A stretch of 44,259 bases of DNA from a virus: the IMG/VR virus record IMGVR_UViG_3300027969_002885, positions 1-44,259 of that record; one strand, written 5' to 3'. Positions 9,689 to 30,701 of the stretch are shown piece by piece (the stretch's first letter is position 1; each line of letters starts with the position of its first letter). The notes under the pieces were generated by a model, which ran no database searches, had not been told where the DNA came from, and saw only the letters and a list, made by a program, of their open reading frames with translations. Made by a program: the position numbers and the translations under genes.

Positions 9689-9717
9689 TGCATGTTCCTT
9701 TATCAGTTAATACTAGT

Positions 9718-9746
9718 ATTATATTACCAACTGTATTTATTGTCAA
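9718..9746 (-). promoter_or_regulatory. Consensus sigma70 promoter for the VWA gene
   Basis: On the minus strand, TTGACA (9746-9741) is followed after exactly 17 bases by TATAAT (9723-9718), a perfect match to the housekeeping sigma70 consensus. It lies about 30 bases upstream of the ATG at 9688 and overlaps the last codons of the 55-aa gene. It probably drives early expression by host polymerase. Confidence 0.85.
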
Positions 9747-9910
9747 GCACATAATCCTCGAAAGCCTTTATCAAATGAGATTCGGGCATATGGTTGTGCT
9801 GAGTCAATTTTATAGAATTCCATTCCTTGATCCTTAGACCAACCTTTTGCACGGACACGTTGACCGATTGCATAAAAATATTTTTTACCGGAAAGAGCAG
9901 TATGTTTCAT
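9743..9910 (-). CDS. Small hypothetical protein (55 aa)
   Basis: A 55-aa basic protein (MKHTALSGKKYFYAIGQRVRAKGWSK begins the frame in short pieces: MKHTALSGKK, then YFYAIGQRVRAKGW) ending RISFDKGFRGLCA. An AAGGATTTAAA ribosome site precedes ATG 9910. It sits alone between a terminator hairpin at 9924-9958 and the promoter of the VWA gene, so its expression probably depends on read-through or an unseen promoter. The basic residues suggest nucleic-acid or protein binding. No family is recognised. Confidence 0.6.
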   Translation of the reverse strand: MKHTALSGKKYFYAIGQRVRAKGWSKDQGMEFYKIDSAQPYARISFDKGFRGLCA

Positions 9911-9923
9911 TTTAAATCCTTAG

Positions 9924-9958
9924 AAAAAAGGGCGGGAATATTCACACTATCCCCGCCC
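9924..9958 (-). terminator. Rho-independent terminator after the MoxR gene
   Basis: Read on the minus strand, GGGCGGG (9958-9952) pairs perfectly with CCCGCCC (9936-9930) across a 15-base loop and is followed by a run of six T (9929-9924). It is the last of three hairpins after the MoxR stop codon. Confidence 0.75.
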
Positions 9959-9963
9959 GTTAA

Positions 9964-10003
9964 CGGAACCTTTCGGCTCCGAGGGAGTCAACTATATGTT
10001 GAC
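9964..10003 (-). other. Two adjacent RNA hairpins between MoxR stop and terminator
   Basis: On the minus strand, GTCAAC-ATATA-GTTGAC (10003-9987) forms a 6-bp stem with a 5-base loop. CGGAGCC-GAAA-GGTTCCG (9981-9964) forms a 7-bp stem with one G·U pair and a GAAA tetraloop. They lie in the 3' untranslated region of the MoxR message, directly ahead of the terminator. They could stabilise the message or be a processing signal. Confidence 0.55.
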
Positions 10004-10009
10004 GTAAAC

Positions 10010-11113
10010 TTAGTTACCGGCTTCTACAATGTACTTGCCGTACTTCTTGTGGAACTCGTCAAAGTTTCTCAACTGACTAGGTTCGATAGGCAGTTCGTAT
10101 GTTTTTAATGCAATCTTTGCACCCATAACAACCAACTCAGTTTCAAAGTTGTTCATCATGTAGTCAATAAAGTTTTGAGCCATTTCGTGGAACTCTTTTG
10201 CTTTAACTTTTTTCTGTTCTACTGCATCTTTCAACTCATAGCACATACCAACAGTCAATGCGTACATTGCACTAATTTCTTTAACAGACAAGTCTTTCAC
10301 TTTGCCTGCAAGAATATCAGCAGGATCGGGCATCTTACCTGAGATTTTGCGGTGTGCTGAAAACTTAACAGCAAGACCTTCACCTACTGCACCTGCAATC
10401 AAGTTGAATTGTGTATCAGTGTCCATGTTGTCCTCGTCTTTCAACAAGTCACTAACGAAACACCAACTACGGGGTGTTGCAAACGCACGGCTTGATGATT
10501 TAGCATCAAAGTCGTACATGTCTTGTTTTGCAAACGACAAGTAACCAACAACGTCTTTGTGAATGTTGTTTTTTACAGCCCATGTCTGCCATGAAGAAAA
10601 ATCGGCTCGCATTTCAAGGTGAATGAAACGATTAGCAAGGGGCATCGGCATACGATAAGTAACACCTTTGTCACTATCACGATTACCTGCCGCTACGATA
10701 ACGACATTATCGGGCAAGAAATATTTACCTACACGACGGTTAAGTACAAGTTGATAACCTGCCGCTTGTACTGATGGGGGTGCCGAGTTCATTTCGTCAA
10801 GAAACAAAACTACAACTGGATACTTACTTGCAAGTTCTTCATCAGGCAAGTCAACAGGGGGAGCCCAGTCCATTTTACCGTTCTCTTTATTGAAGAAGGG
10901 AATACCACGAATGTCAGTGGGTTCCATTTGCGCCATACGCAAATCAATCATAATACCACCTAGTTCCTGAGTAATTTCAGAAACAACATCAGACTTACCG
11001 ATGCCGGGAGGTCCCCAGAGAAAAACGGGACGTTTAGTTTTGAAAGCAGATAAAATTGCTTTGCGAGTTTGTACACTAGTGATAGTGTGATTGTCAGAGA
11101 CTTGAGATGCCAT
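10010..11113 (-). CDS. MoxR-family AAA+ ATPase
   Basis: A 367-aa AAA+ ATPase. Walker A is GPPGIGKS at 34-41, Walker B is VVVLFLDEMN near 100-109, and the following NSAPPSVQAAGYQLVLNRRVG and VIVAAGNRDSD (sensor 1 Asn) match the MoxR/CbbQ group. PMPLANRFIHLEM gives the arginine-finger region. MoxR ATPases pair with VWA proteins to remodel or metallate client enzymes; the partner gene is at 8414-9688. The start has an excellent AAGGAG site. The gene has its own consensus promoter at 11154-11182 and three hairpins downstream, so it is a separate transcription unit from its partner. Confidence 0.93.
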   Translation of the reverse strand: MASQVSDNHTITSVQTRKAILSAFKTKRPVFLWGPPGIGKSDVVSEITQELGGIMIDLRMAQMEPTDIRGIPFFNKENGKMDWAPPVDLPDEELASKYPVVVLFLDEMNSAPPSVQAAGYQLVLNRRVGKYFLPDNVVIVAAGNRDSDKGVTYRMPMPLANRFIHLEMRADFSSWQTWAVKNNIHKDVVGYLSFAKQDMYDFDAKSSSRAFATPRSWCFVSDLLKDEDNMDTDTQFNLIAGAVGEGLAVKFSAHRKISGKMPDPADILAGKVKDLSVKEISAMYALTVGMCYELKDAVEQKKVKAKEFHEMAQNFIDYMMNNFETELVVMGAKIALKTYELPIEPSQLRNFDEFHKKYGKYIVEAGN

Positions 11114-15906: not shown

Positions 15907-18444
15907 TTATTTTTGGTCAAAACGTATACGCAACCATTCCCAATCATAAGTCAACATAAGTTTATTAAAATCCCCGCCAACTTCTTTGTAGTATTTAACC
16001 GCATCTTCTGCACCGTTGACGGACTGCTCTCCGAACTTTCCGTCACCTTTTGTAAGCCAAATACTTAATCTAAACTTACTGTCATTGTCGGTAGCATGTG
16101 ACAACTTAATACATTCACGGAACGCTGTTCTCCAAGTATCCCATTCGTTAGTATTATACATAGCTATACCAGAATCAATATCTACTACTTCAGTTGTGCT
16201 ATCCATAGTAAAGTCTAACCCGCGTACTACAGTATTCAATGTTAATTTTTTATTGTTAGCGACAATAGCTTGATGTCCGTAAACTAACCCGTTTACAGGA
16301 TTAGTTGCTCTGAATATATAATGTCTGCGTGATTTATATATGTTGGGTTGCCAATTGAAGTCAAAATCATCTCTTACTTTCAATTTAGCATTGACTAAGA
16401 AATACCACGGGGTATTACTAGCATTTGCTGCCGCATGTTGACTTGCTACACGACCTTTAACACCATCAATTCGCACGATCCTATTAGGTAAATTAAGTGA
16501 CAGTAAATGTTCATAATTAGCATCCGCACATGCCTCACCATTACTAAAGAATATAATATCCAGTGGTTCAACTGTTTCTTCAAACTTGTGTTCAATAACA
16601 TAGTCATAGTCAGTAATCTTATCATAAAAGAAAGTCACGGCTGCTTTAGGTATAATAGCTTCACTTGGGAATAAATGCACACTGATTTTATCTGCTTTAA
16701 TTAGGTTGTGATTATAATTACTTGTACCCTTTACAAAATGCATGTATGCTGTTGTAAACTTATTCTCCATACATGCATCAAATATGCTATCCTCATAAAC
16801 GATTTTATCTATCTTTAAATCAGCTTGCACTTTATCAATATATTTGTTTTCTGTTGCGTTATCATGACCTCGGTACATGATTGCAGGCATTATTTCAGGT
16901 GTATGAAATTTAGTACCAACAATGTGATTAAATTTTTCTTCTAGTTCCTCGGGGTGCCAACTAAAGTCAAATGTATCTCTATCAATTACCTCAATGAAAC
17001 GCCAATTGCGAATATTAGGTTTCTTTGTAACTCTCATTGTATTAATATATTTTTTATCTGTCCCATTTCTAAAACGATAAGTTGGTCCGCCTGTACGTTG
17101 ATGTTGTGTTCCAAAAACAAATATAGTAGGAGGTTCAGTTGGCTTTGGGCACCAGCTATAGTCAAAATTAGAGTCTTCGATATCTTCAGGTATTTCCCAA
17201 TTTTCTTTATCAGGTGTTAATGTAGCTTTTATATCGTTAATATATTTCTTTTCAATTGCACCCTTGACACGATACAAAATAGTAGGCATATCTTCTGAGT
17301 TATGCCATTGATTTCCAAATACATATATGTAAGGAGGTTCGTCTTCATCAGGATGCCAGCTATAATCAAACTCTACATTTGAGACCACTGGTCTATATGC
17401 ACGATTATCTTTATTATTTTTTTTAGTTGCTCTGAGCAAATCAAAATGTTTTATTACAGTTGCGTTAGGCGCATTGTATTTGGGGCCGCCATTTTTTTGC
17501 CATTGTGTTCCAAACTGCCATATATATGCTGGTTCGTCTGGGTGCGGTAGCCAGCTATAATCAAAGTCATCTTCTATGTCATCTGGTATAGTCCACATAG
17601 ATTTATTAGGAGTTAATGTGACTTTGATATCAGTCATATACTTCTTTTCAGTAGCACCCTTTACACGATACAGTAACGTAGGCATTGTTAGACTATCATA
17701 CCATTGATTGCCAAACACATATATGTAGGGCGGATCATTTTTATCTGGATGCCAACTAAAATCAAAATCAATGTTAGGTAATAAAGGTCTCCAGCATCTA
17801 TCTTCTTTATTGTCTTTCTTAGTAGCAATTAGTGCCGATGAGTACTTAGTATGAACTCCGTTTTTTGCAACATAACTAGGACCACCTGTCTTTTGATGTT
17901 GTGTTCCGAATTCCCAGATTAGTGGTGGCTCTGTAGGACTCGGTACCCAACTATAATCAAAATCATCTTCTATATCATCTGGAATAATCCAATTAGTTTT
18001 ATCAGGTGTTAATGTGGCTTTAATTGTATCAATATATTTTTTTTCAGTTGCACCTGAAATTTTGTACTGCATAGTTGGCATTGTAACTGAGTCATACCAT
18101 TGATTTCCAAATACATACACGAAAGGCGGTTCTGTTTCATCAGGATGCCAGCTATAATCAAACTCTACGTTTGCTATTAGTGGTCTCCAATTTCTTAAGT
18201 CTGGCGTAGGTAATCTTATTGCATGTTGGCTTGTTTGATATTTTATACCTTCGTTTTTTGGTATTACAAATCTTGGTCCACCTGTCTTTTGATGTTGTGT
18301 ACCAAACTGATGTATGTATGGTCTGTCATACTTGAATGGTCTCCAATCAAAATCAAAATTACTAGTATCAATGTTTTCAGGGATATCCCAATAACCACTT
18401 GACCATAATTGTTCCCTTCTATCTAATTCTGACGAATCAATCAC
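15907..18444 (-). CDS. Tandem-repeat protein with glycosyltransferase-like C-terminal domain
   Basis: An 845-aa protein starting at GTG 18444, overlapping the carbamoyltransferase stop (GTGA). Residues 1 to about 560 consist of eight units of about 70 aa, each opening with FDYSW or FDFSW-x-P. Two types alternate: A units carry FGTQHQKTGGP, B units carry FGNQWYDS-x2-MP and end with KKYI-x-KATLTPDK. The arrangement is four A-B pairs. The remainder has EPLDIIFFSNGEACADANYEHL and RIDGVKGRVASQHAAANASNTPWYFLVNA, which matches the N-terminal part of the protein at 29754-30701, a GT-A-like fold. A further degenerate FDFNWQP unit lies inside it. The repeats may bind a glycan or protein partner. The function is not known. 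Confidence 0.78.
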   Translation of the reverse strand: MIDSSELDRREQLWSSGYWDIPENIDTSNFDFDWRPFKYDRPYIHQFGTQHQKTGGPRFVIPKNEGIKYQTSQHAIRLPTPDLRNWRPLIANVEFDYSWHPDETEPPFVYVFGNQWYDSVTMPTMQYKISGATEKKYIDTIKATLTPDKTNWIIPDDIEDDFDYSWVPSPTEPPLIWEFGTQHQKTGGPSYVAKNGVHTKYSSALIATKKDNKEDRCWRPLLPNIDFDFSWHPDKNDPPYIYVFGNQWYDSLTMPTLLYRVKGATEKKYMTDIKVTLTPNKSMWTIPDDIEDDFDYSWLPHPDEPAYIWQFGTQWQKNGGPKYNAPNATVIKHFDLLRATKKNNKDNRAYRPVVSNVEFDYSWHPDEDEPPYIYVFGNQWHNSEDMPTILYRVKGAIEKKYINDIKATLTPDKENWEIPEDIEDSNFDYSWCPKPTEPPTIFVFGTQHQRTGGPTYRFRNGTDKKYINTMRVTKKPNIRNWRFIEVIDRDTFDFSWHPEELEEKFNHIVGTKFHTPEIMPAIMYRGHDNATENKYIDKVQADLKIDKIVYEDSIFDACMENKFTTAYMHFVKGTSNYNHNLIKADKISVHLFPSEAIIPKAAVTFFYDKITDYDYVIEHKFEETVEPLDIIFFSNGEACADANYEHLLSLNLPNRIVRIDGVKGRVASQHAAANASNTPWYFLVNAKLKVRDDFDFNWQPNIYKSRRHYIFRATNPVNGLVYGHQAIVANNKKLTLNTVVRGLDFTMDSTTEVVDIDSGIAMYNTNEWDTWRTAFRECIKLSHATDNDSKFRLSIWLTKGDGKFGEQSVNGAEDAVKYYKEVGGDFNKLMLTYDWEWLRIRFDQK

Positions 18445-19937
18445 GAAAGAACCTTTATACCATAATGCATTTCAAATCTATCTGCATCTAATCTAGTATT
18501 AACCATTGGCTCACCCCTAATGTTTAGTGATGTGTTAAGCAACATAGGACAACCAGTTAAGACATACCATTTTTCAAGGAGTTCTCTGATTCCGCTACCA
18601 TCATTCGGGACAGTTTGGACACGACTAGTGCCGTCAACATGGACGATAGCAGGATATAAGTCAGGATACCTACAAGTACTGATGACTTGCATATACTGAC
18701 TATCACGCCAATTGACAGGCATGTTAAAATAATTATGAACATACTCTTCCAGAATGACTGGCGCAAAGGGTCTGAACTTCTGTCTTCGTTTAATTTCATT
18801 TACTTTCTCCTTAATCTTGCTGCCTCTAGGGTCTGCAAGGAGGCTACGGTTTCCGAGTGCGCGGGGGCCGAACTCGGCTCGTCCTGAGGCAACTCCCACA
18901 ATTTGTTCAGTAAGTAGCCTATCCAATAACTGATTAACGGGATAAGGGCCAGGAATATCATACCCGAGATAAGAATTGGTCCAGTTAACTCTACCCCCAA
19001 AAGCCAGAGCGGCAGCACCAAGGCTACTACCACTATCACCGGGGCTAGGCATAATCCATATATTATCAAAGTATTCTCCTAGAAATCTATTTGCTAAACA
19101 GTTTAGTGCTACACCGCCGCCGTATACTAGATTCTTACTACAACCGTTAATTTTTGCACGTTGTAATATATTTTTTAATAAGACTTCTAATAGTAATTGT
19201 CCACTGGCGGCTAAATCTTCATTACTAGCATCTGGTAAATATTCACCCGGAAATCCCAAATGTAAATTGTCTTTAAAATCTATGTTGTAACTATCGGATA
19301 GCAGATCCATATGCATCTGTGGATAGTATTTACTATCACCATATGCTGCCATACCCATTGTAATGTATTCTTCTTCGTTTGGTTTTAATCCAATCCTATC
19401 TGTTAACGAACTGTAAAATAAACCTAAACTGTCAGGGTATTTTTTACTGTATATTTTTTTATACACAGCTTTATGATTGTTATCGTATCTAGCATCCCAG
19501 ACGCTTATAGTGTCAAACTCCCCAATGGCATCAATTATCAATACTGTGGCTTCTGTAAAATTACTTGTTTGAAACCCAGCAGCCGCATGGCAAAGATGAT
19601 GACCATGAGTATGTATTTTCTTTTTACCTAGGCTCTTGTAAGCACCTTGAGCTAAGTATCTGCTAGGAAATAATGTGTTTAAATTTGGATTTTCCCCTGA
19701 GCGTAATTGTCTCAAGTACTTTAACCAAGGACGTTCATAGTAATGTAACTCATAGTCACCTTGAACATATTGCAATGCATCTTTGACTATTGCAGAGCCT
19801 ATATCTTTATCATTTTTTATCCCGCTATATCGTTCATTATGACCCGCAAATAATATGTCGCCGTCTTTGATTACAGCTAAAGATGCATCATGGAATCCAG
19901 CGGATATTCCTATGTAATTTGTATTTTTCATTGTCAC
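18441..19937 (-). CDS. Carbamoyltransferase (NodU/CmcH family)
   Basis: A 498-aa enzyme that transfers a carbamoyl group, via carbamoyl-adenylate from carbamoyl phosphate and ATP, to a hydroxyl of a sugar or antibiotic. Motifs: YIGISAGFHDASLAVIKDG at the start, HTHGHHLCHAAAGFQTS (metal-binding His), TVLIIDAIGE, YGGGVALNCLANR, then GRAEFGPRALGNRSLLADPR and KFRPFAPVI of the YrdC-like part. It is slightly shorter than the usual 550-600 aa. Start GTG 19937 overlaps the upstream stop (GTGA); an ATG at 19931 is an alternative. It follows the sugar gene cluster, so O-carbamoylation of a glycan is a natural reading. Confidence 0.92.
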   Translation of the reverse strand: MTMKNTNYIGISAGFHDASLAVIKDGDILFAGHNERYSGIKNDKDIGSAIVKDALQYVQGDYELHYYERPWLKYLRQLRSGENPNLNTLFPSRYLAQGAYKSLGKKKIHTHGHHLCHAAAGFQTSNFTEATVLIIDAIGEFDTISVWDARYDNNHKAVYKKIYSKKYPDSLGLFYSSLTDRIGLKPNEEEYITMGMAAYGDSKYYPQMHMDLLSDSYNIDFKDNLHLGFPGEYLPDASNEDLAASGQLLLEVLLKNILQRAKINGCSKNLVYGGGVALNCLANRFLGEYFDNIWIMPSPGDSGSSLGAAALAFGGRVNWTNSYLGYDIPGPYPVNQLLDRLLTEQIVGVASGRAEFGPRALGNRSLLADPRGSKIKEKVNEIKRRQKFRPFAPVILEEYVHNYFNMPVNWRDSQYMQVISTCRYPDLYPAIVHVDGTSRVQTVPNDGSGIRELLEKWYVLTGCPMLLNTSLNIRGEPMVNTRLDADRFEMHYGIKVLS

Positions 19938-20060: not shown

Positions 20061-20726
20061 TCAGTTATGCCATTCAATAGACGGAAACATTTTGACAGTT
20101 TTGTAATCAATATCATATTTACTGTTTACAATTAGGTCGATAATTTCTATTATAGAATTTGGATCCATTGCATTAGTAGCATCTCCTAACGGGTATGGGG
20201 TATTATCCCATAATGGAGTATTAATCCCACCGGGGTGTATGCTAGAGACTTTGATATGTCTGTCTCTTAGTTCTTTACCAAGTATTCCAGCAAATGCAGT
20301 TAGACCATACTTACTAGCACAATATATACTTTGATTCTCTAATTCTTCTAATCCTGCTACACTATTGATAAAGACTATTTTACTATGATCTGGCATTGAC
20401 TCTAATGCTAATCTGGTTACATACATGGCACCTGACAGGTTAGTATTAATAACACGGTCAATAGTATGGATAGATGTTTGAGTAAACTTGACCATATCAA
20501 ATACCCCTGCATTATTAATCAGTAAATCAATTTCACTATCACCGATGGAATAAAATGTTTTAGATACGTTATCAAAGTTACTAATATCACAAATATGATG
20601 AGTATAATTAGGCATTTCTACATTGGTTCTACTTAATCCAATAACATTGTGATTCTTGCTATAGTGTTTTGCCAGAGCTAAACCTAGACCACTACTAGTG
20701 CCAGTAATCAATATGGTCTTTTTCAT
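20061..20726 (-). CDS. Short-chain dehydrogenase/reductase
   Basis: A classical 221-aa SDR using NAD(P)H. The cofactor motif TGTSSGLG is at 8-15, LINNAG near 89-94, the catalytic Ser lies in FINSVAG, and the Tyr/Lys pair in IYCASKYG. HPGGINTPLW is the post-catalytic PG motif. It overlaps the cyclase gene by 32 bases and is the last enzyme of the cyclase-kinase-RLP-nucleotidyltransferase run. A keto reduction or hydroxyl oxidation of a cyclitol or sugar is the most economical role, by context only. Confidence 0.9.
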   Translation of the reverse strand: MKKTILITGTSSGLGLALAKHYSKNHNVIGLSRTNVEMPNYTHHICDISNFDNVSKTFYSIGDSEIDLLINNAGVFDMVKFTQTSIHTIDRVINTNLSGAMYVTRLALESMPDHSKIVFINSVAGLEELENQSIYCASKYGLTAFAGILGKELRDRHIKVSSIHPGGINTPLWDNTPYPLGDATNAMDPNSIIEIIDLIVNSKYDIDYKTVKMFPSIEWHN

Positions 20727-21786
20727 ATAATCTCATTAGTTGTATTGCTGATTCTAATTCAGTAGGTGTTAGGTCATTGATGATTTTACACTGTCCAATA
20801 GATGCTGGTATAGGTAAGTATTGATTTCCGTTTCTGTGCTTCATTACATCAGACAAGCCTTCTAACAATAATGTGCTATTTAAAAAATCAGTATGAGTTA
20901 CAGGTAGATTCATTTTTCTAGTCAAATTAAATATTCTAGTTAACTCATCCGCTGAAAGAAGGTTTCTAACAGTTGATATACAGCAACTTAATAAACAATC
21001 TAGTATAACTGCTTCTCCGTGAAGTAGATTAGGTAGGTTCTTCATTTCAATTAGAGGACTGAATGAATGACCAAAATCTACTGGTCTTTCTAATTCTTGC
21101 TCCCACAAATTATCATTAAGTTCTTTGGTCATACCTGCAATTGCCCGTTCAATTATTTCAGTTGAATGTGTGGTATTTTGAAATTTGCACTGTAGTAACT
21201 TATCTGAATCTGTTTCTATTAATTCAAACAACTTACTATCTAACACGATTGCTAATTTCAATATCTCTGCAAAGCCATTAGATATTTCTCTATCGGATTG
21301 TGTTTTGATAAACGTAGTGTCAATCAATGTTAGTTGTGGTGGATAAAAACTACCCAAACGATTTCTTCTATTAAAATGATTTATGCTTGTTTTTGCTCCC
21401 ACACTAGCGTCAACGATTGCTAGTAATGTCGTGGGTATACGAATGTAAGGAATACCCCTACGATATATACTACAGCAAAATCCTACTAAGTCTAATAAGA
21501 CTCCGCCACCTATTGCTATGACTGGTTCTGACCTACGTAATATTTTATTTTCTTCTAAGAAGGTTAGTACCATTTCCGCATTTGCCCAATCTTTGTTTTC
21601 TTCGGACGAGTCTATAAATAACAACGAATCTACGTCATCAAATAGTTGATCGGAATATAACTCATAAACATTTCTGTCAATTATAACAATTTTTCTTTTA
21701 CTAGTAACCTCGGATAACGATAATACATTGACAGCTTTACGGATTTCAAATTCAATCAAGAGTGATGTTTTTATGTTACATATCAT
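20695..21786 (-). CDS. Sugar-phosphate cyclase, sedoheptulose-7-phosphate cyclase-like
   Basis: A 363-aa member of the dehydroquinate-synthase superfamily: NAD motif GGGVLLDLVGF (93-103), YRRGIPYIRIPTTLLAIVDASVG (108-130), and zinc ligands E174 (GFAEILK), H240 (DFGHSF) and H256 (LLHGEA). Several features point away from AroB and towards the C7-cyclitol enzymes (2-epi-5-epi-valiolone or desmethyl-4-deoxygadusol synthases): YRRG instead of YLRG, NRLGSFYPP, and the block NLWEQELERPVDFGHSFSPLIEM (read in parts) typical of that group. It would turn sedoheptulose 7-phosphate into a cyclitol. Its start overlaps the kinase stop (ATGA). The exact product cannot be read. Confidence 0.85.
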   Translation of the reverse strand: MICNIKTSLLIEFEIRKAVNVLSLSEVTSKRKIVIIDRNVYELYSDQLFDDVDSLLFIDSSEENKDWANAEMVLTFLEENKILRRSEPVIAIGGGVLLDLVGFCCSIYRRGIPYIRIPTTLLAIVDASVGAKTSINHFNRRNRLGSFYPPQLTLIDTTFIKTQSDREISNGFAEILKLAIVLDSKLFELIETDSDKLLQCKFQNTTHSTEIIERAIAGMTKELNDNLWEQELERPVDFGHSFSPLIEMKNLPNLLHGEAVILDCLLSCCISTVRNLLSADELTRIFNLTRKMNLPVTHTDFLNSTLLLEGLSDVMKHRNGNQYLPIPASIGQCKIINDLTPTELESAIQLMRLYEKDHIDYWH

Positions 21787-22736
21787 AGTAATTTATTTAC
21801 TAGATAGCATCCATACCCATAAAAAAACTTAGCGTGAGATATGTTACCACTATGACACTTAAACGGTAACATTCTAAAATATTGGGTAGCCTCAAATAGC
21901 ATTACCAACGATGTGTTATCTTCAATATTTTCTATAAACAACGAATTGAACTCTGCTAATTTATTTGGTATAATATAATTGGACATAATCTGATTATCAT
22001 TAATTGTTACTATTGAATCATTTATCAATCCATAGTGACTATTACTGCATTGTAACACCTGACTATAATCTGAATATCTACTATCAACTATCCCTTCTTC
22101 ATATAAATCAATAAAGGTTATTTTGTTTGTATCAGTATTGTATAGTATGTTTTCAAGTGTGGGATTGCCGTGGACATAGCCTTCACTAGTAATATCTCTA
22201 TTGAATAGTTTTTTGAACTTATCGTGCTGTCCGATCATGCCCCTAAATGTTTCACCCCTATACTCATATACATCCATCATGTAAAAGTCTCTGAACTCTG
22301 GGAACTCTAGTGCATCATGTAGTTTCTGTTCTACTTCTTCCATAAAGTAAAGCATAAGAGAACTACGCAGTGGACTATATGACCTATGATGTATCAAGTC
22401 AAACGCTTCCCATAATGATTGATTCAACTTTTCTACATCATCTATTAGATTATTCTTAAACAAAGTTTTAATATCTATACCATCAATATATTCAATATCA
22501 AAGTATGCTTCATTATCATTAACTCCTGCATCCAAGACCTTTGGAACAAATCCAGGAAACATACTATTATAACGTTGTAATTTCTTTAGCTGACTATACC
22601 ATCGAACATATCCATATTCTCTATTCTTATCTGTAGCTATTTTTTTTCTAACAAACTTACCCATAGAGTTTTCATGTAGACATGTTGAATTTAAAGAACC
22701 GCCTTTAAGTATTGTGATGTTATCTGTCGATGGCAT
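21783..22736 (-). CDS. Kinase-fold (aminoglycoside-phosphotransferase-like) protein
   Basis: 317 aa from ATG 22736 (an alternative ATG lies at 22769, overlapping the RLP gene by 50 bases). The C-lobe has the Brenner motif at 188-197, VHGNPTLENIL, and ITFIDLYEEG near 206-215 for Mg-ATP. In the family the motif is HGDxxxxN; here the catalytic Asp is Asn (N191), so catalysis may be altered. The rest resembles capsule-cluster phosphotransferases. Position between the cyclase and the RuBisCO-like protein suggests it handles a cyclitol or sugar, as substrate kinase or as a binding pseudokinase. Confidence 0.72.
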   Translation of the reverse strand: MPSTDNITILKGGSLNSTCLHENSMGKFVRKKIATDKNREYGYVRWYSQLKKLQRYNSMFPGFVPKVLDAGVNDNEAYFDIEYIDGIDIKTLFKNNLIDDVEKLNQSLWEAFDLIHHRSYSPLRSSLMLYFMEEVEQKLHDALEFPEFRDFYMMDVYEYRGETFRGMIGQHDKFKKLFNRDITSEGYVHGNPTLENILYNTDTNKITFIDLYEEGIVDSRYSDYSQVLQCSNSHYGLINDSIVTINDNQIMSNYIIPNKLAEFNSLFIENIEDNTSLVMLFEATQYFRMLPFKCHSGNISHAKFFYGYGCYLVNKLL

Positions 22737-23838
22737 TTCGTAATTCCCGTACAGCAGCCTTAATTCCATCAGGATGTGTGTGACATGCCCCGCCTACATT
22801 CGCTAAGTAATCAACACCAAACTTATCGGTAACTTGTGGTATTAATGTTGCATTCATTCCACAACTCAATGCAGGGACTACATTGTGACTAGTTAATGTG
22901 TCCATAATATTTTTAAGGTACACAGGATCATCACTTAAGTATCCGCCCCACATTCCGGCATGTATAGTATCGATACCACTAATGATTGCTAACTTGCATA
23001 GAACTATCCAATCGATACCATATGGATTATGTATATTGGTTAAAATCTTATCACCACTCTTTTGGTAATGCATGACTAGTGGATAATTTTTATTTCGAAC
23101 AGCGGCATAACTACCTAAACCACTCCAGATATTAATATGTATACCATTAACCCCTAGCATCTTAACAGTATTAGTCTTTTCTATAAGTTTGTCTGGATTG
23201 CTGTTAATGCAAGTAAGATAAACTACATTCTTATCTTGTATAATATCTCTAATGTAGGGTAAGCGTGATTCTAAATTGCAGTATGAGGGTGATCCTAAAA
23301 TTTCATCTTCTTTAATAATGTTAGCCCCACCATCAATCATTTCCTTAACTAATAATGATAGTTCTTTAGGGCGTAGTCCTGTCTTAGGTTTTAATATACA
23401 TCCTAATAAAGGTCGATCATATGTTTTAGTTAATTCTCTTATACCCGAAAGACCAAACTTTGGCTTAAGCATAGGCAAATTAGTTATATCAATGTCGGTT
23501 ACTCTACACTTAACTACATGATCTATGTCAAGCTGTCCACCTTGAATCATACAAAGTAGTTGTGATACACCATCTTCATCCCAATCAATATTTACTAACG
23601 GATAACCAATAATTATTTCACCATCAGTTATTTTAGACCATTCATTTTTATCTCCTAATATTTTAGCAGAATGATTACTAACTAATTCAGGTGATTCAAA
23701 CTCATTTCGCACAGATGGATTGCCGATACTCTGTCCTATAGCAATTGCCTCTGCCGCAATAGATAGATTTTTAGTAGAGGTAACTTGATATGTTACTTTA
23801 ATATGGTCTGTGGGTATCTCATTGATATAAATGTTCAT
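22720..23838 (-). CDS. RuBisCO-like protein (form IV)
   Basis: A 372-aa homologue of the RuBisCO large subunit. Catalytic counterparts seen: LLGCILKPKTGL (K150 and K152, spinach K175/K177), the carbamylation and metal triad IIKEDEI (K176, D178, E179 for K201, D203, E204), H257 in LVMHYQKSG (about H294), H293 in TIHAGMWGG (H327), S325 in ALSCGM (S379) and the phosphate-binding GG at 349-350. Loop 6, with the essential Lys334 (VGKLEG), is replaced by GGYLSDD, so CO2 fixation is not expected. RLPs act as enolases, isomerases or decarboxylases on sugar phosphates. The start overlaps the cupin stop (ATGA), inside a cyclase-kinase-nucleotidyltransferase operon. No small subunit is seen. Confidence 0.92.
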   Translation of the reverse strand: MNIYINEIPTDHIKVTYQVTSTKNLSIAAEAIAIGQSIGNPSVRNEFESPELVSNHSAKILGDKNEWSKITDGEIIIGYPLVNIDWDEDGVSQLLCMIQGGQLDIDHVVKCRVTDIDITNLPMLKPKFGLSGIRELTKTYDRPLLGCILKPKTGLRPKELSLLVKEMIDGGANIIKEDEILGSPSYCNLESRLPYIRDIIQDKNVVYLTCINSNPDKLIEKTNTVKMLGVNGIHINIWSGLGSYAAVRNKNYPLVMHYQKSGDKILTNIHNPYGIDWIVLCKLAIISGIDTIHAGMWGGYLSDDPVYLKNIMDTLTSHNVVPALSCGMNATLIPQVTDKFGVDYLANVGGACHTHPDGIKAAVRELRNAIDR

Positions 23839-24161
23839 TTTATTTCTACTTCATATTTGTCATTAGGATCGCTAATATCTCTAACTACGATTAATTTAAC
23901 ATCTGTTAGATACTCTACTTGACTAATTTCGTATGGCTCTAATACAAAAATTTCACCCGGGCCGAACTCATTTCCGTTTAATAGTAAGTGACCTTCTATT
24001 ATAACATTAATCTCTGTACCTAATTTATGAAAATGATCTTGGTGGAATTCTCCGGCTTTGTGTTGATGTAGTCCTACTTCAAAATCAGCTTTCAACAAGC
24101 TAGGATCAAAGTTACCAACAAACCAACCCTTTGTGAATTGTTCTATGTGTGCTATTTTCAT
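23835..24161 (-). CDS. Small cupin protein
   Basis: A 108-aa single-domain cupin. The two conserved motifs are visible: GEFHQDHFHKLGTEINVIIEG (residues about 37-57, with HxH...E metal ligands) and GPGEIFVLEPYEISQVEY. Cupins of this size act as isomerases, dioxygenases or metal-dependent epimerases on small sugars or acids. It lies two bases before the nucleotidyltransferase stop and overlaps the RLP start, so it probably belongs to the same pathway. The substrate is unknown. Confidence 0.8.
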   Translation of the reverse strand: MKIAHIEQFTKGWFVGNFDPSLLKADFEVGLHQHKAGEFHQDHFHKLGTEINVIIEGHLLLNGNEFGPGEIFVLEPYEISQVEYLTDVKLIVVRDISDPNDKYEVEIK

Positions 24162-24163
24162 AT

Positions 24164-24892
24164 CTATTTTCCAAAATTCATATAGGCATTACGGTTAATA
24201 AAGTTTTCTAAATCTTTTGGTGTGCCAATTGGCCAGAACTCTTTACTATGCAATTCATAATTTTTTACTTTTAGCCCACGCTTTATCGAATAATTATAAA
24301 CTGGTGCAACATAGTATTCACCATTCTCTTTGTGATCTTCTGCAATCATTGTTTCCGCATCCGTAAAGAAATCAGATGCTTTTGCCCAATGATACACTCC
24401 TACAGTTGCGTCATTGCTTATAACTTGTTTCTCTCTAACTTCAATAATATCACCTTTTTCATTTTTTTTAATATAACTGCACTTAGTATCATTTTCCTTG
24501 TATGTTAAAATATATGAAGTATTAGGATAATCGCATAGCATTGAATTAAAGCAACTAGAGTCCCAATCTAAATATTGATCTCCGTTAACTGATATCAAGG
24601 GCTTAGTTAAATCAATATAATCTTTGGCTAGTAACAATGTTTGCGCGGCGCCCTGGGTAGTAAATTCGCTAACTATGATAGTACCCATAGGTGACAATAT
24701 ATCTTTAATTTGCGGGTATTGATCTATGTGTTCTTTCAATACAATAAAAAATACATCGCCCAAAATTTTTAAAGTCTTTACTGCATGTTCAATCATGGGA
24801 GATCCATTAACATCAATGATGTATTTAGGTATAGTATAACCCACATCACGAAAACGTTTACCCGCGCCACATAATCCAAACAATATATTCAT
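24164..24892 (-). CDS. Sugar-phosphate nucleotidylyltransferase-like enzyme
   Basis: A 242-aa GT-A-fold nucleotidyltransferase. The signature at the N-terminus is LCGAGKRFRDVGYTIPKYI (G-x-G-x-R-F..PK; residues 7-25), followed by VNGSPMIEHAVKTL. SVNGDQYLDWD contains the Mg-binding Asp. It activates a sugar or cyclitol phosphate with an NTP to give an NDP- or CDP-linked donor. The motif resembles capsule nucleotidyltransferases. It begins at a four-base overlap with the SGNH gene. Together with the cyclase and kinase genes downstream it completes a plausible route to an activated cyclitol or unusual sugar. Confidence 0.87.
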   Translation of the reverse strand: MNILFGLCGAGKRFRDVGYTIPKYIIDVNGSPMIEHAVKTLKILGDVFFIVLKEHIDQYPQIKDILSPMGTIIVSEFTTQGAAQTLLLAKDYIDLTKPLISVNGDQYLDWDSSCFNSMLCDYPNTSYILTYKENDTKCSYIKKNEKGDIIEVREKQVISNDATVGVYHWAKASDFFTDAETMIAEDHKENGEYYVAPVYNYSIKRGLKVKNYELHSKEFWPIGTPKDLENFINRNAYMNFGK

Positions 24893-25665
24893 ATCAAGTG
24901 ATGTTCTTTAATAAAGTTAATAACATTTTCACCTACGAGCCTATTGCCCTCTTCATTACAATGTGAACTACCCATAGTATCAGGATATAATCTTGTATAA
25001 TATCCCCATTCATTTGGCATGAAGTTTTCAATATAAGTAAGTTCTAATGATGGGAAACCCATAATCATATGCGGTATGTTAAATTTTTTCAGCAAAAAAT
25101 GCATCGTAATTATTAATGCTTGATCATACTCACCTTTAACACCAGTGTCAAATAATTCGGTATAATAATACTTGATTGCTTCAAATTTTGATTTATTAAC
25201 TTTTTCAAATAGTTTAGCAATGCCCGGTGCCTTTCCACATTGAAAGTAATTAATATTTGAGATTGTTTCGGATATCAATCTTGCATCGTTTGATCCAAAT
25301 GCTAATTCTCTACCGTTAGTAGGTGTTGTACCATGGTATGGAATATATGATTTATATTCAACATCTGACAAGTTTGGCTTTTTATATTTTGTACCGTCAT
25401 CTAATGGAAAAATTAATCTTTCATGGAATGTAGTAGTGATTACCACTAACGGTTTATAAGATGGATCGCGGCGAATTTGTTCTATAATCTTTTTTACTTG
25501 AAGATAAATTACAAAATTACAACAGCCTGCACGTGCATATACTTTTAAAGGTAAATCAAAATGACTTGCAACGACTCCACCGAAACTATCTTCAAAACAT
25601 CTATCATCAGGTAATCCAGTACCTACGCCAAAACTATCTCCGCATATTGCAATGTGTGTTACCAT
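24889..25665 (-). CDS. SGNH/GDSL-type hydrolase-like protein
   Basis: A 258-aa protein with the family's block I, AICGDSFGVG (residues 6-15, nucleophile Ser in GDSF), and a block-V-like SSHCNEEGNRLVGENVI near the end (His in place of DxxH). A Gly/Asn oxyanion region is less clear. SGNH enzymes deacylate or acylate glycans and lipids. It lies beside a second SGNH gene and nucleotidyltransferase, so a glycan-modifying esterase or acyltransferase is likely. No signal peptide is visible. The start overlaps the neighbour's stop. Confidence 0.72.
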   Translation of the reverse strand: MVTHIAICGDSFGVGTGLPDDRCFEDSFGGVVASHFDLPLKVYARAGCCNFVIYLQVKKIIEQIRRDPSYKPLVVITTTFHERLIFPLDDGTKYKKPNLSDVEYKSYIPYHGTTPTNGRELAFGSNDARLISETISNINYFQCGKAPGIAKLFEKVNKSKFEAIKYYYTELFDTGVKGEYDQALIITMHFLLKKFNIPHMIMGFPSLELTYIENFMPNEWGYYTRLYPDTMGSSHCNEEGNRLVGENVINFIKEHHLI

Positions 25666-26459
25666 AAATTATTCTCCGTAATATAATCTCTCATATGCTC
25701 TGCCCACAGTGTGTGTCCTAACTCACTGGGATGCATATTTAGAATAACTGATTTCTTTTCAGGATCAGGATCATGGCTTGTAATATAGTTGTGAAAACTA
25801 TGGATCTCATCATTCTTATGCATAAAAGTTTTTTCATCAATAAGGTCCCATACCATTCCATCCGGTTGACTTTGATAATGTCTAGCATAAGGATCATCAG
25901 TCCATTGTTTAATATGCATATCTTGGCGTTGATAGAATGCTTGAAAGAACAAAAATTTAATATTATAATGTTTGAATAATGTTTGTAGATAGAAAATTTG
26001 TTGCAGATATCTGTGTGTAGATTCTTCTACATTCCAAAAATATTCAGCATATAATCTACCAAATCTACGCAGTGGTTCTTGCATGTAATCATGTGACCAC
26101 ATTGGCCATATAGTAATCCAGTTACGTATTTTTTCATCTACATAAAAGAAGTCTTTTCGTTCCGGACTGGTCAACCCTACTACAACAAATAATTCGCTTG
26201 TATCTTTACCTTTACTTAGATATTCTTGTGTCAACCATCCTACTAAAAGTCTAACACTTCTATCATTGCTACCTGCAGGATAGCTTAGATTAACTACGTC
26301 TGAGGTCCCAAACATATTACCAAGTTTTGTAGGCCATATTCTAGTACTCCGATATGTATCATTTTCTGCGTCCCAGTCATTGACAGTGGTAGGAAGTGTT
26401 GGATCTTTCATCTCACTACCGTATGTCCAACTATCTCCCACTACTACTAGTTTTTTCAT
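25659..26459 (-). CDS. SGNH/GDSL-type hydrolase-like protein, second copy
   Basis: 266 aa beginning MKKLVVVGDSWTYG (GDSW nucleophile motif at 8-11). PAGSNDRSVR provides the block with Asn, and NMHPSELGHTLWAEHM near the end provides the His of the triad (xxSxLGH). It is a homologue or functional analogue of the preceding protein but shares only the core motifs. Cytoplasmic by sequence. Probably modifies acyl groups on the glycan made by this cluster; the substrate is unknown. Confidence 0.75.
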   Translation of the reverse strand: MKKLVVVGDSWTYGSEMKDPTLPTTVNDWDAENDTYRSTRIWPTKLGNMFGTSDVVNLSYPAGSNDRSVRLLVGWLTQEYLSKGKDTSELFVVVGLTSPERKDFFYVDEKIRNWITIWPMWSHDYMQEPLRRFGRLYAEYFWNVEESTHRYLQQIFYLQTLFKHYNIKFLFFQAFYQRQDMHIKQWTDDPYARHYQSQPDGMVWDLIDEKTFMHKNDEIHSFHNYITSHDPDPEKKSVILNMHPSELGHTLWAEHMRDYITENNLW

Positions 26460-27193
26460 AATCTTTGATATCTTTCTCTTATTAAAGTATAATCCCGAAA
26501 AGGATCTAAATCACTTACGTCATCTCGCCACGGCACTTCACCAAGCCAGGCAGCAAACTTAACTACATGAATATTTTGCATAATACATCTATTATAAATC
26601 ATATTACCCGGACTATAGAAACTAGACTCAGGATCAAATTTAACACCAGATATTAGTAACTGATTATTGGGTAATGCTTTATGCTTATAATACATAAACG
26701 TATTAGTAGCAATATCCATAGATTCACTATCACCCCAAAAAATTAAATCAGCTATTCCGTGATGTTCATAATCAGTATGATTGATTCCGTTGTCTCCACC
26801 TGAACTGTAAATTGTTCTAGGATCGATTTTTGAGTTACTAAATTTATTAAATTCTGGAAAAACTAAATCAAACCTAGTTTTGATTACTAAGTCATACCGA
26901 AAGTTATTTTTTATTTCATGTTTCTTCTTCAATTCATTTGCCATCATTATGCTATAAAACATGTTTCCAAATGACCCCATTGAATTCAATTCAAATGGTT
27001 GTTGGTTGATATAACTAGTAGGCTTATATAGGTCGTTGACTGTTCTATGCGTTTCGTCATCCAATCCCCATGTATGATAGAATATATCTGCATTTAAATC
27101 GCCAAAGAAATTTTTAAAACAAGGATGTGCTTTTATCCCCGTTCTAAGTAATCCACTAATACATATTGCAATTTTACCAGATTTCGAATCCAT
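26456..27193 (-). CDS. Putative glycosyltransferase (family with LRT/QPRT start)
   Basis: A 245-aa protein starting with KIAICISGLLRTG, similar in layout to the next protein (KIALCFSGQPRTW). Both share DIFYHTWG/DIFCHLWD near residue 35-50, then a YDLVIKTRFDLVFPE/YDIVIRMRYDAFFTA motif that supplies the acidic residue after the RxD, and a FWGDSESMDIAT/FWYSDSQTYDIL segment. This pattern is found in putative glycosyltransferases of capsule and phage clusters. The two genes are paralogues in tandem, overlapping by 20 bases. The donor and acceptor are unknown. Confidence 0.72.
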   Translation of the reverse strand: MDSKSGKIAICISGLLRTGIKAHPCFKNFFGDLNADIFYHTWGLDDETHRTVNDLYKPTSYINQQPFELNSMGSFGNMFYSIMMANELKKKHEIKNNFRYDLVIKTRFDLVFPEFNKFSNSKIDPRTIYSSGGDNGINHTDYEHHGIADLIFWGDSESMDIATNTFMYYKHKALPNNQLLISGVKFDPESSFYSPGNMIYNRCIMQNIHVVKFAAWLGEVPWRDDVSDLDPFRDYTLIRERYQRL

Positions 27194-27944
27194 CTTTGCC
27201 CTTGGAAAATGCTAGTTCGGCTGACTCACGGAATAATTTGATATCCCAATGATTTACAATTAACTTGATATTATTCTTTTTAGCGTAGTGAAAAAATAAT
27301 TGGTGCATATCAGGTTTCCTATTAAAGCTATATTTCAATTTTATAGTATGTATGTTTAAATAATAATCAGCAAGGATATCATAAGTCTGTGAATCAGAAT
27401 ACCAAAATATATCCCCTAAACGACCGCTATTGGTAAGATGATCCCAACCAACGTGAAAACAGTACATTGAGTTATCTTCTATAACACTCGGATGTTGGTT
27501 ATATATTACAGGAGCCGTAAAGAATGCATCATATCTCATTCTTATTACTATATCATATTGAATCATGTTTTCAATTTCGTATTCTCTTTTTATTCTAGCA
27601 CTTGACATGATACCATAGTACTGACTTAAAAAGTTAGAAAAAACAATAGGCTGATTTTTTCTGATGGGAACGAAAGTTTTTGCCGGTTCTATTATATATT
27701 TTTTTGGATTTAGTATACCAATTAACTCAGCCAAATCACCTTCGGGGGATAACCAAGTATCAGCAGGACCATCTGCTATTGAGTTTGGTATAGAATTATA
27801 GTCCCAAAGGTGACAAAATATGTCAACATTATTATTCTGGATAACATGTTGCTTCCAAGATTCAATACATTTTCTCCAAGTCCTAGGCTGACCACTGAAG
27901 CATAATGCTATTTTAAGATTTCCAGGTTTCAATATAATCCCCAC
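27174..27944 (-). CDS. Putative glycosyltransferase, paralogue of the neighbour
   Basis: 256 aa, sharing the KIALCFSGQPRTW start, DIFCHLWDYNS, YDIVIRMRYDAFF and FWYSDSQTYDIL motifs with the gene downstream. The C-terminal third, containing RKPDMHQLFFHYAKKNN, differs, which suggests a different acceptor. It overlaps the GDPD-like gene by 32 bases. No membrane segment is present. Confidence 0.72.
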   Translation of the reverse strand: MGIILKPGNLKIALCFSGQPRTWRKCIESWKQHVIQNNNVDIFCHLWDYNSIPNSIADGPADTWLSPEGDLAELIGILNPKKYIIEPAKTFVPIRKNQPIVFSNFLSQYYGIMSSARIKREYEIENMIQYDIVIRMRYDAFFTAPVIYNQHPSVIEDNSMYCFHVGWDHLTNSGRLGDIFWYSDSQTYDILADYYLNIHTIKLKYSFNRKPDMHQLFFHYAKKNNIKLIVNHWDIKLFRESAELAFSKGKDGFEIW

Positions 27945-28344
27945 ATACTGCGTAAATATTTTTATCTTTTAAATTTAGATGTTCAGTTAACACTACCAAA
28001 ACACTATTCGGTACAGTATCTTTGTCAGGGTATGTCCAAATATAGTTTCTGCTAGTCAATGTTCTCTCATCATTCTCATGCCAAAAACAATGAACAGTGT
28101 TGTTTAATAGGTATTCTAATGATGGTAAATTTTTAGCGTGTGCCCAAATTTCATCACGTTGTAAAAAGTCTAATGTTGTTTCATGTGTAGGTTCATCATG
28201 ACCTAACATAATCTTACCATTAATATACCATACATCTACTTCTACATCATACCCACTATCAATTGCTGATAGTATGTAGCCGGGAGTATTTTCATACTCA
28301 ACGTTTGGTCCTAGAATATTACCTCTATGTGCTATAAATTTCAT
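27913..28344 (-). CDS. Half-length glycerophosphodiester phosphodiesterase-like protein
   Basis: 143 aa starting MKFIAHRGNILGPNVEYENT: the HRG...ENT motif of GDPD/PI-PLC enzymes, followed by EVDVWYINGKIMLGHDE (metal Glu and Asp, catalytic His). These residues sit in the first half of the TIM barrel; the family's usual 230-260 aa are reduced to 143. So it is either a minimal active form or part of a barrel with altered activity. It overlaps both neighbours (start ATGA with the radical SAM gene). A role in removing or transferring a phospho-glycerol group on a glycan is possible. Confidence 0.7.
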   Translation of the reverse strand: MKFIAHRGNILGPNVEYENTPGYILSAIDSGYDVEVDVWYINGKIMLGHDEPTHETTLDFLQRDEIWAHAKNLPSLEYLLNNTVHCFWHENDERTLTSRNYIWTYPDKDTVPNSVLVVLTEHLNLKDKNIYAVCGDYIETWKS

Positions 28345-29753: not shown

Positions 29754-30701
29754 TTACCAACCTTCTATTTTTCGTATTACATCTATCTCACGCACTAGAG
29801 GACCTAGATTGTGTTTGTCACTATTATAATGACGCTTAAAAAATTTACTTTGGTATTCGTCTAATGTACACATTGGTAAGCCTAGCTTATCACTTAATGA
29901 GACTCCAAACAAAGCAGATTCACGTACAGGATCTTTATCTTTACATTCTTCCCACATTGACGGGTAGTTATCGAACCATTGGACTTGTTTGCTATTCCAA
30001 TCTGTTAACATAGTCATATATGTTCCCATACGTGCTCCTAAAATAGCCCATTCTCCGTTCTCTACATCAGCACCTACATTGTGCCAAATAGTTAAGTGAT
30101 TGAAATTACGACCGGATACATTGCGTTTGAATTCTTCTATCTCAGGTTTGCGTCCGTTGACTAAACACATTTTTACACCCTCACGAAATCCGGCGCGCCA
30201 TGCTTGAAAAGGTGTACCGTTAGGGTGAGTTGTGCTGTAACAATCGTACATACTCCAATACAAACTGTTGTTATAGTCTAAACAAAAGTCAACTGTATGA
30301 GTATCATTACCATCACTTGCTTCGTGTGTACGCATGTTCATTACGTACTCTTTTGTCCAACTACTCATGCCGCCGTTTCCATAGCGCAACCCGTTGATAG
30401 CATTAACTGCTCTCCAACGATATTGTGCTTTTTTGTAATCTTCGTGCTTGTCTGTGAAGTCTAGGGTAAGATTGAAGAACTCCATGTTAGGCATGTTGTC
30501 CCCGTCAATCAATATGAAACGTTCAGTATCACTTGCTTCGGCTGCTGCCTTATGTGCGGCGTCACTACCTTTAACTCCGTCTACTCTACGTGCCCATGGC
30601 ACCATATTTTTAATTTTTAACCAGAATTCTTCTTTTTGTGGCTCGTCATAACTTAGGTAAATACAATCTAAATCTGCTACATCAATTAAACTTGAACTCA
30701 T
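29754..30701 (-). CDS. Putative glycosyltransferase, GT-A-like
   Basis: 315 aa. Residues 11-60 (LDCIYLSYDEPQKEEFWLKI, RRVDGVKGSDAAHKAAAEAS) and ILIDGDNMPN (DxD-type motif, FILIDGDN) resemble a GT-A nucleotide-sugar site. The same segment pattern recurs in the C-terminal domain of the 845-aa repeat protein. It starts MSSSLIDVAD and overlaps the 124-aa gene by 20 bases. Probably adds a sugar within the same pathway; the donor is unknown. Confidence 0.72.
   Translation of the reverse strand: MSSSLIDVADLDCIYLSYDEPQKEEFWLKIKNMVPWARRVDGVKGSDAAHKAAAEASDTERFILIDGDNMPNMEFFNLTLDFTDKHEDYKKAQYRWRAVNAINGLRYGNGGMSSWTKEYVMNMRTHEASDGNDTHTVDFCLDYNNSLYWSMYDCYSTTHPNGTPFQAWRAGFREGVKMCLVNGRKPEIEEFKRNVSGRNFNHLTIWHNVGADVENGEWAILGARMGTYMTMLTDWNSKQVQWFDNYPSMWEECKDKDPVRESALFGVSLSDKLGLPMCTLDEYQSKFFKRHYNSDKHNLGPLVREIDVIRKIEGW

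Follow-up and report, generated by a model that had tools for sequence, protein, structure and literature searches.

The six-gene block described here lies at positions 20061 to 24892, on the minus strand, of a 44,259-nucleotide virus record (IMG/VR record IMGVR_UViG_3300027969_002885), which was analyzed over its full length and is referred to below as the window. The block holds six intact open reading frames that encode, in order of transcription, a nucleotidyltransferase (NTP), a small cupin (CUP), a RuBisCO-like protein (RLP), a kinase-like protein (KIN), a sedoheptulose-7-phosphate cyclase (CYC), and an SDR oxidoreductase (Table 1). A preliminary description of this DNA, made from the sequence alone, listed six overlapping genes. 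All six are real and lie where it placed them, but only four of the five junctions overlap (by 4, 50, 4, and 32 nt); the NTP and cupin genes are separated by a 2-nt gap. A scan for promoters and terminators gave nothing beyond chance level. As described below, the six genes form two cassettes, NTP-CUP-RLP and KIN-CYC-SDR, rather than a single set.

Table 1. Genes of the six-gene block and associated features in the window
Feature	Coordinates	Strand	Basis
Sugar-phosphate nucleotidyltransferase (NTP), RLP-cassette type	24164..24892	-	PF00483, 2.6e-8; PHROG 3980, 5e-53; NTP tree
Small cupin (CUP), HxH(4)E(6)G motif, sugar-phosphate-isomerase-like fold	23835..24161	-	AlphaFold; Foldseek; conserved residues
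RuBisCO-like protein (RLP), uncharacterized family	22720..23838	-	PF00016, 2.3e-33; residue survey; clade 100/99
APH-fold kinase-like protein (KIN), HGN replacing HGD	21783..22769 (likely start, 22736)	-	Fold model; sub-threshold Pfam APH match
Sedoheptulose-7-phosphate cyclase (CYC), likely EEVS (ValA) type	20695..21786	-	PF01761, 3.5e-36, and DHQS_C; ValA 4p53, 3e-83; residues; tree
SDR oxidoreductase, cyclitol cassette	20061..20726	-	PF00106, 1.7e-35; Y135 and K139 conserved
GDPD-like small protein (G28), fourth recurrent RLP-cassette member	27913..28344	-	Conserved HRG, E35/D37, H49-D50; PDB GDPD profile
NolO/TobZ-type carbamoyltransferase, probable decoration enzyme, downstream	18441..19937	-	PF16861, 2.5e-48; PHROG 1601, 3.5e-89

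To our knowledge, few RLP reactions have been established so far, mostly in methionine salvage and apionate breakdown. The window RLP scored 116 bits against PF00016 (cut-off, 30.1) and belongs to form IV of the RuBisCO superfamily, with the catalytic domain and an incomplete set of carboxylase residues. In a survey of 66 sequences of the family, Lys175, Lys177, the Lys201-Asp203-Glu204 metal site, His327, Ser379, and the phosphate glycines are kept. Nearly all of these sequences carry the substitutions Glu60Gly, Thr65Asn, Trp66Pro, Asn123Gly, His294Gln, Arg295Lys, and Lys334Tyr, and replacement of these residues rules out a function as carboxylase. Retention of the lysines and the metal site together with loss of the carboxylase residues fits enolization without carboxylation. 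In a tree with RuBisCO, OiaX, and 4nas sequences (MtnW was not included, and the Azospirillum reference L147 was left out), the family formed a separate clade with support of 100/99. The RLP reached only a fraction of each NCBIfam equivalog cut-off, with OiaX ranking next to RuBisCO among the models; identity as MtnW (82 of 514 bits) or as OiaX (126 of 700 bits) was rejected on these scores.

Scans of viral contigs retrieved at least 302 relatives of the RLP, of which 80 were kept, and 34 cyclase loci. A genome scan added 22 cellular relatives, many of them in Pelagibacteraceae, and there were no matches to the RLP in 50,697 phage records. The same family is carried by cultured Legionella species (L063, L064, and L065, at approximately 9000 to 10900), in which the RLP adjoins an NTP, and by Azospirillum (L062); cultured organisms are thus on offer for its study. 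One copy (L009, 8001 to 9053) is short of about 25 residues, among them the KPK motif that holds the catalytic lysine; either the copy is inactive or the assembly is wrong at this point. No report of a phage RLP family was found in open-access full texts, a search that did not extend to most subscription papers.

We counted the neighbors of the RLP at 64 loci (non-redundant at 90%). An NTP was present at 61 of the 64, the cupin at 46, and the GDPD-like protein G28 at 46 (within 6 kb); the cyclase was present at only 4. A census of NTPs with PF00483 missed the NTP of the window and was replaced by one with our own profiles. Of 68 NTP matches, 64 lay no more than 1.5 kb from the RLP, 63 of these 64 on the same strand, and none lay 3 to 8 kb away; almost all cupin matches near RLP loci likewise lay within 1.5 kb. 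The cupin has no Pfam match. Its AlphaFold model, built from the family alignment, has a pLDDT of 95.9, and its top Foldseek matches are cupins, including sugar-phosphate isomerases of the phosphomannose isomerase (PMI) type (E value, ~6e-5). Motif 1 reads H43-x-H45-(x)4-E50-(x)6-G57, with H43, H45, E50, and G57 conserved in 55 sequences; the histidine of motif 2 is absent. G28 conserves HRG, E35/D37, and H49-D50 and matches a PDB GDPD profile (3.8e-4) over the N-terminal third only, the protein being about half the length of a GDPD.

In a tree of NTPs, that of the window groups with the NTPs of RLP cassettes and with those of cassettes in which RpiB or DHBP synthase is found, and the NTPs of cyclase-only loci form a clade of their own (100/100). 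The preliminary description had likened this NTP, with the cyclase and the kinase, to the enzymes of C7-cyclitol pathways; by phylogeny it belongs to the RLP cassette and not to the cyclitol cassette. Members of the NTP family are also often fused to a HAD phosphatase or a phosphoglucomutase-like domain (L010, 5877 to 7235; L042, 2425 to 3795; L156, 8341 to 9726), pointing to further variants of the nucleotide-sugar cassette.

The KIN-CYC-SDR set occurs without the RLP in approximately 29 viral contigs, in most cases immediately preceded by a different NTP, and the SDR comes after the cyclase in the cyclitol loci that extend far enough. When whole records were searched, many of them fragments, none of 17 cyclase-only records contained an RLP, and none of 37 RLP-only records contained a cyclase. 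With cyclase at 4 of 64 RLP loci, this distribution rules out the RLP as a general enzyme of cyclitol pathways. It also speaks against the single pathway of the preliminary description, in which the RLP helped to make an activated cyclitol: the RLP goes with the NTP, the cupin, and G28, almost always in the absence of the cyclase. The complete set is nevertheless not confined to the window; it is present in 10 other viral contigs, and two further copies are cut by contig ends. A near-twin of the window, the 68.8-kb record L002, has a single NTP, of the RLP type, and genes that we take, from their sequences, to encode a T4-like baseplate.

Comparison of two of the six-gene operons, L067 and L013, gave identities of 94% for the NTP, 98% for the cupin, 49% for the RLP, 94% for KIN, 95% for the cyclase, and 91% for the SDR. 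The RLP of the group containing L013 and L127 resembles that of L007, a phage contig that lacks the cyclase (identity of approximately 84% for L127 versus L007), and the two cluster with support of 100/100. Judging from these sequences, a distant homolog took the place of the RLP gene at the same site. The operon thus seems to require an RLP, yet of a type that serves equally well without the cyclitol genes, so that the substrate of the RLP is unlikely to be the cyclitol.

Phage records contain the NTP, cupin, and G28 families in Synechococcus phages. The isolated cyanophages Bellamy and SynMITS9220M01 have these families in an order similar to that of the RLP cassette, but RpiB, a pentose-phosphate isomerase that is here fused to the NTP, stands in for the RLP (PF02502, 4e-33 in SynMITS9220M01), and the same cupin follows directly; the Cys and His motifs of the RpiB domain are kept. 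In S-SKS1, a related NTP is fused to DHBP synthase (PF00926, 5e-65), an enzyme that acts on ribulose 5-phosphate. S-CAM9 and B23 have an NTP fused to a HAD domain, and G28 is encoded nearby. A viral scan based on the cupin yielded 80 more loci. Among the cupin-bearing loci collected, 84 had the RLP, 70 had RpiB, 10 had neither, and none had both; after removal of redundancy, the numbers were 57, 18, 3, and 0, with an NTP in all. The hypergeometric probability of this lack of overlap is 6e-15, a value that serves as a guide only, since the two sets of loci stem from scans with different aims, which covered only 5 to 10 kb around each gene. We concluded that the RLP and RpiB are mutually exclusive in these cassettes. 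In RpiB-type and related cupin loci (L224, 2974 to 4280), genes for a PfkB-like kinase and a HAD phosphatase also immediately precede the NTP, perhaps for further steps of the sugar pathway of the RpiB cassette.

For KIN, the only Pfam match, to APH, was below threshold (0.0035). An AlphaFold model built from the family alignment (pLDDT, 89.4) had APH aminoglycoside kinases as its top PDB matches (APH(2'')-Ia; E value, 3e-8). Residues 1 to 11 are absent from homologs and are modeled at a pLDDT of <50; hence, translation probably starts at 22736 rather than 22769. The kinase fold named in the preliminary description is thus upheld, but the catalytic Asp of the HGD motif is replaced by Asn in all 15 non-redundant homologs, and this weakens the case for a kinase step. 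With the rest of its nucleotide site retained, the family could represent an unusual kinase or some other enzyme that uses ATP. That KIN is not a kinase at all, its APH fold with HGN binding a nucleotide for a different reaction, is a doubtful but serious alternative: the invariance of HGN is in its favor, as is the weak retrieval of JAK2 kinase-domain entries in a profile search, but the putative ATP-site residues Lys42 and Glu51 and the putative metal-binding residues Asn207 and Asp221 are almost invariant.

Among solved structures, the nearest relative of the cyclase is ValA, the EEVS of validamycin biosynthesis (4p53; 3e-83); a DDGS (2e-54) and DHQS (5e-44) rank behind it. At three positions that we take to separate EEVS from DDGS (L267, D281, and H360 in the window), Leu, Asp, and His are present in ValA and in all 16 phage cyclases compared; DDGS has Glu, Ala, and Thr, and DHQS has Val, Asn, and Val. 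The metal ligands (E213, H284, and H300 in the window) are kept, one truncated or frameshifted row excepted, and each of the 16 phage sequences retains motifs like those of ValA. An active-site fingerprint for EEVS has been described (PMC4426668). In a cyclase tree, DHQS was split off by a 100/100 branch and the DDGS references formed a separate 100/100 pair. Assignment as AroB (3-dehydroquinate synthase) was rejected on the TIGR01357 score (216 bits; cut-off, 305) and on the residues, the ValA match, and the tree, in agreement with the earlier view of the enzyme as a sedoheptulose-7-phosphate cyclase distinct from AroB. The phage cyclases formed one group (90/100), and the EEVS references did not fall into one clade; since this is so, and the tree included no reference for 2-epi-valiolone synthase (EVS), we regard the window cyclase as likely, rather than certainly, of EEVS type. 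The separate phage clade leaves some room for an EVS or an unassigned sedoheptulose-7-phosphate cyclase, but either is improbable, since the phage cyclases keep all three residues of the EEVS type and the motifs resembling those of ValA. At an E value of ≤1e-50, searches run without a positive control found no cyclase in 297 Pelagibacterales genomes or in 398 genomes sampled from the phylum to which the Legionella locus belongs.

RuBisCO, RpiB, and DHBP synthase all work via enediols of pentulose phosphates. The DeepYkr RLPs of R. rubrum and R. palustris, encoded next to a cupin gene, catalyze a 1,3-isomerization of a ketose phosphate in the MTA-isoprenoid shunt (PMC5893883). Together with the residues of the phage RLP, this shared chemistry and this precedent lead us to propose that the RLP isomerizes or epimerizes a ketose phosphate. 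The first cassette, consisting of the NTP, the cupin, the RLP, and usually G28, would make a nucleotide-activated sugar. In this scheme, the RLP would use the enolization site of RuBisCO without CO2 chemistry, most likely on a pentulose phosphate, doing the job that RpiB would do in the sister cassettes; the cupin would assist, possibly as a second isomerase, and the NTP would attach the nucleotide to give the nucleotide sugar. The second cassette would cyclize sedoheptulose 7-phosphate, giving a C7 cyclitol that would then be modified. Because this cassette's own NTP is missing from the window phage, a single NTP may serve both products, or the cyclitol may have another use. Both products would probably decorate the virion or host surface glycans.

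We infer, with moderate confidence, that the six genes are two independently mobile cassettes in one polycistron of a T4-like phage, within a surface-polysaccharide-type region, and that the RLP isomerizes or epimerizes a sugar phosphate that feeds a nucleotide sugar. A broader reading is offered more tentatively: the RLP family as a whole, in the viral contigs and in SAR11 and other cells, would be a sugar-phosphate isomerase or epimerase that is interchangeable with RpiB and serves the making of a novel activated sugar, paired in some phages with an EEVS making a carbocyclic sugar mimic, so that two rare sugars would be placed on the virion or host surface. Several points weigh against these proposals. 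KIN lacks the usual catalytic Asp. RpiB loci have the PfkB-like kinase and HAD phosphatase in addition, so that RpiB and RLP cassettes need not share a product. Finally, in cyclitol-bearing phages, the RLP cassette always lies directly upstream of KIN and the cyclitol NTP is missing, an arrangement that fits a joined pathway.

Such a merged pathway, with the RLP and cupin acting on the cyclitol or a precursor and the single NTP activating the cyclitol phosphate in this lineage, would account for the preservation of the order NTP-CUP-RLP-KIN-CYC-SDR, mostly overlapping, in divergent phages, for the lone RLP-type NTP of the 68.8-kb near-twin, and for a replaced RLP slot that was refilled rather than lost. 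We nevertheless consider it unlikely, since the incoming RLP type occurs in phages without the cyclase, the family overall lives without it, and the NTP clade tracks the RLP rather than the cyclase. Least likely of all is a decarboxylation or cleavage of a branched or keto-acid sugar phosphate by the RLP, in the manner of OiaX in apionate catabolism, instead of an isomerization: the RLP shares Tyr at position 334 with OiaX and has OiaX next to RuBisCO in NCBIfam scoring, but it falls far below the OiaX cut-off, differs at residues 294, 295, and 327, and sits in a biosynthetic cassette, with an NTP, whose context is common to RpiB.

The proposed isomerase has partial counterparts in known systems. 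Like DeepYkr, the phage RLP adjoins a cupin and is predicted to isomerize a ketose phosphate; unlike the phage cassette, the DeepYkr system belongs to methionine salvage and has no nucleotidyltransferase. The phage RLP shares its fold, K175, and the K201-D203-E204 site with OiaX, MtnW, and form III RuBisCO; it differs from RuBisCO in the replacement of E60, N123, H294, and K334, and its family lies in a clade apart from the RuBisCO and OiaX sequences of the tree. The acarbose and validamycin pathways use an EEVS, kinases, and a nucleotidyltransferase, AcbR or ValB (PMC9200736). The phage set resembles them in having a cyclase with the ValA residues, an SDR, and a kinase-fold protein, to which cyclitol-only phages add an adjacent nucleotidyltransferase; unlike those pathways, it is phage encoded, its KIN is of APH type with HGN, and it is accompanied by an RLP and a cupin, which those pathways lack. 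Bacterial relatives on plasmids, in contrast to the phage set, adjoin ROK kinases.

If the proposal is true, the RuBisCO fold gains a new job, as an alternative to RpiB in a nucleotide-sugar cassette, and this role is directly testable because RpiB chemistry predicts the class of substrate. The Global Ocean Sampling study of 2007 reported marine RuBisCO homologs that clustered with no known form, giving no context, host, or function (PMC1821046). The phage RLP family may account for these homologs, with which it is likely identical. Judging by the papers searched, a phage-encoded EEVS-type cyclase would be the first for viruses; no report of a phage EEVS was found in open-access full texts, with most subscription papers outside that search. 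Phage EEVS-type cyclases would suggest that carbocyclic sugar mimics take part in the surface chemistry of phages or their hosts.

Around the six genes, the preliminary description had noted a carbamoyltransferase and glycosyltransferases. The former was borne out by a strong match to PF16861, and in L009 a carbamoyltransferase directly follows the RLP. The latter call is unproven, because the proteins encoded at 26456 to 27944 match no Pfam glycosyltransferase; there is one weak match to DUF7796. Two adjoining SGNH-hydrolase-like proteins, one a member of DUF6071, are encoded at 24889 to 26459 and recur beside the RLP cassette in related phages. A giant open reading frame for at least 2,751 amino acids (35958 to 44258) is open at the edge of the window, and the C-terminal 1,000 residues of its product have no match in phage records. 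The region from 15907 to 18444 encodes a predicted tail-fiber-like protein with repeats of a W/P-rich unit (FDFDW..FGTQHQKTGGP), and stretches resembling these repeats are found in the product of the gene at 29754 to 30701.

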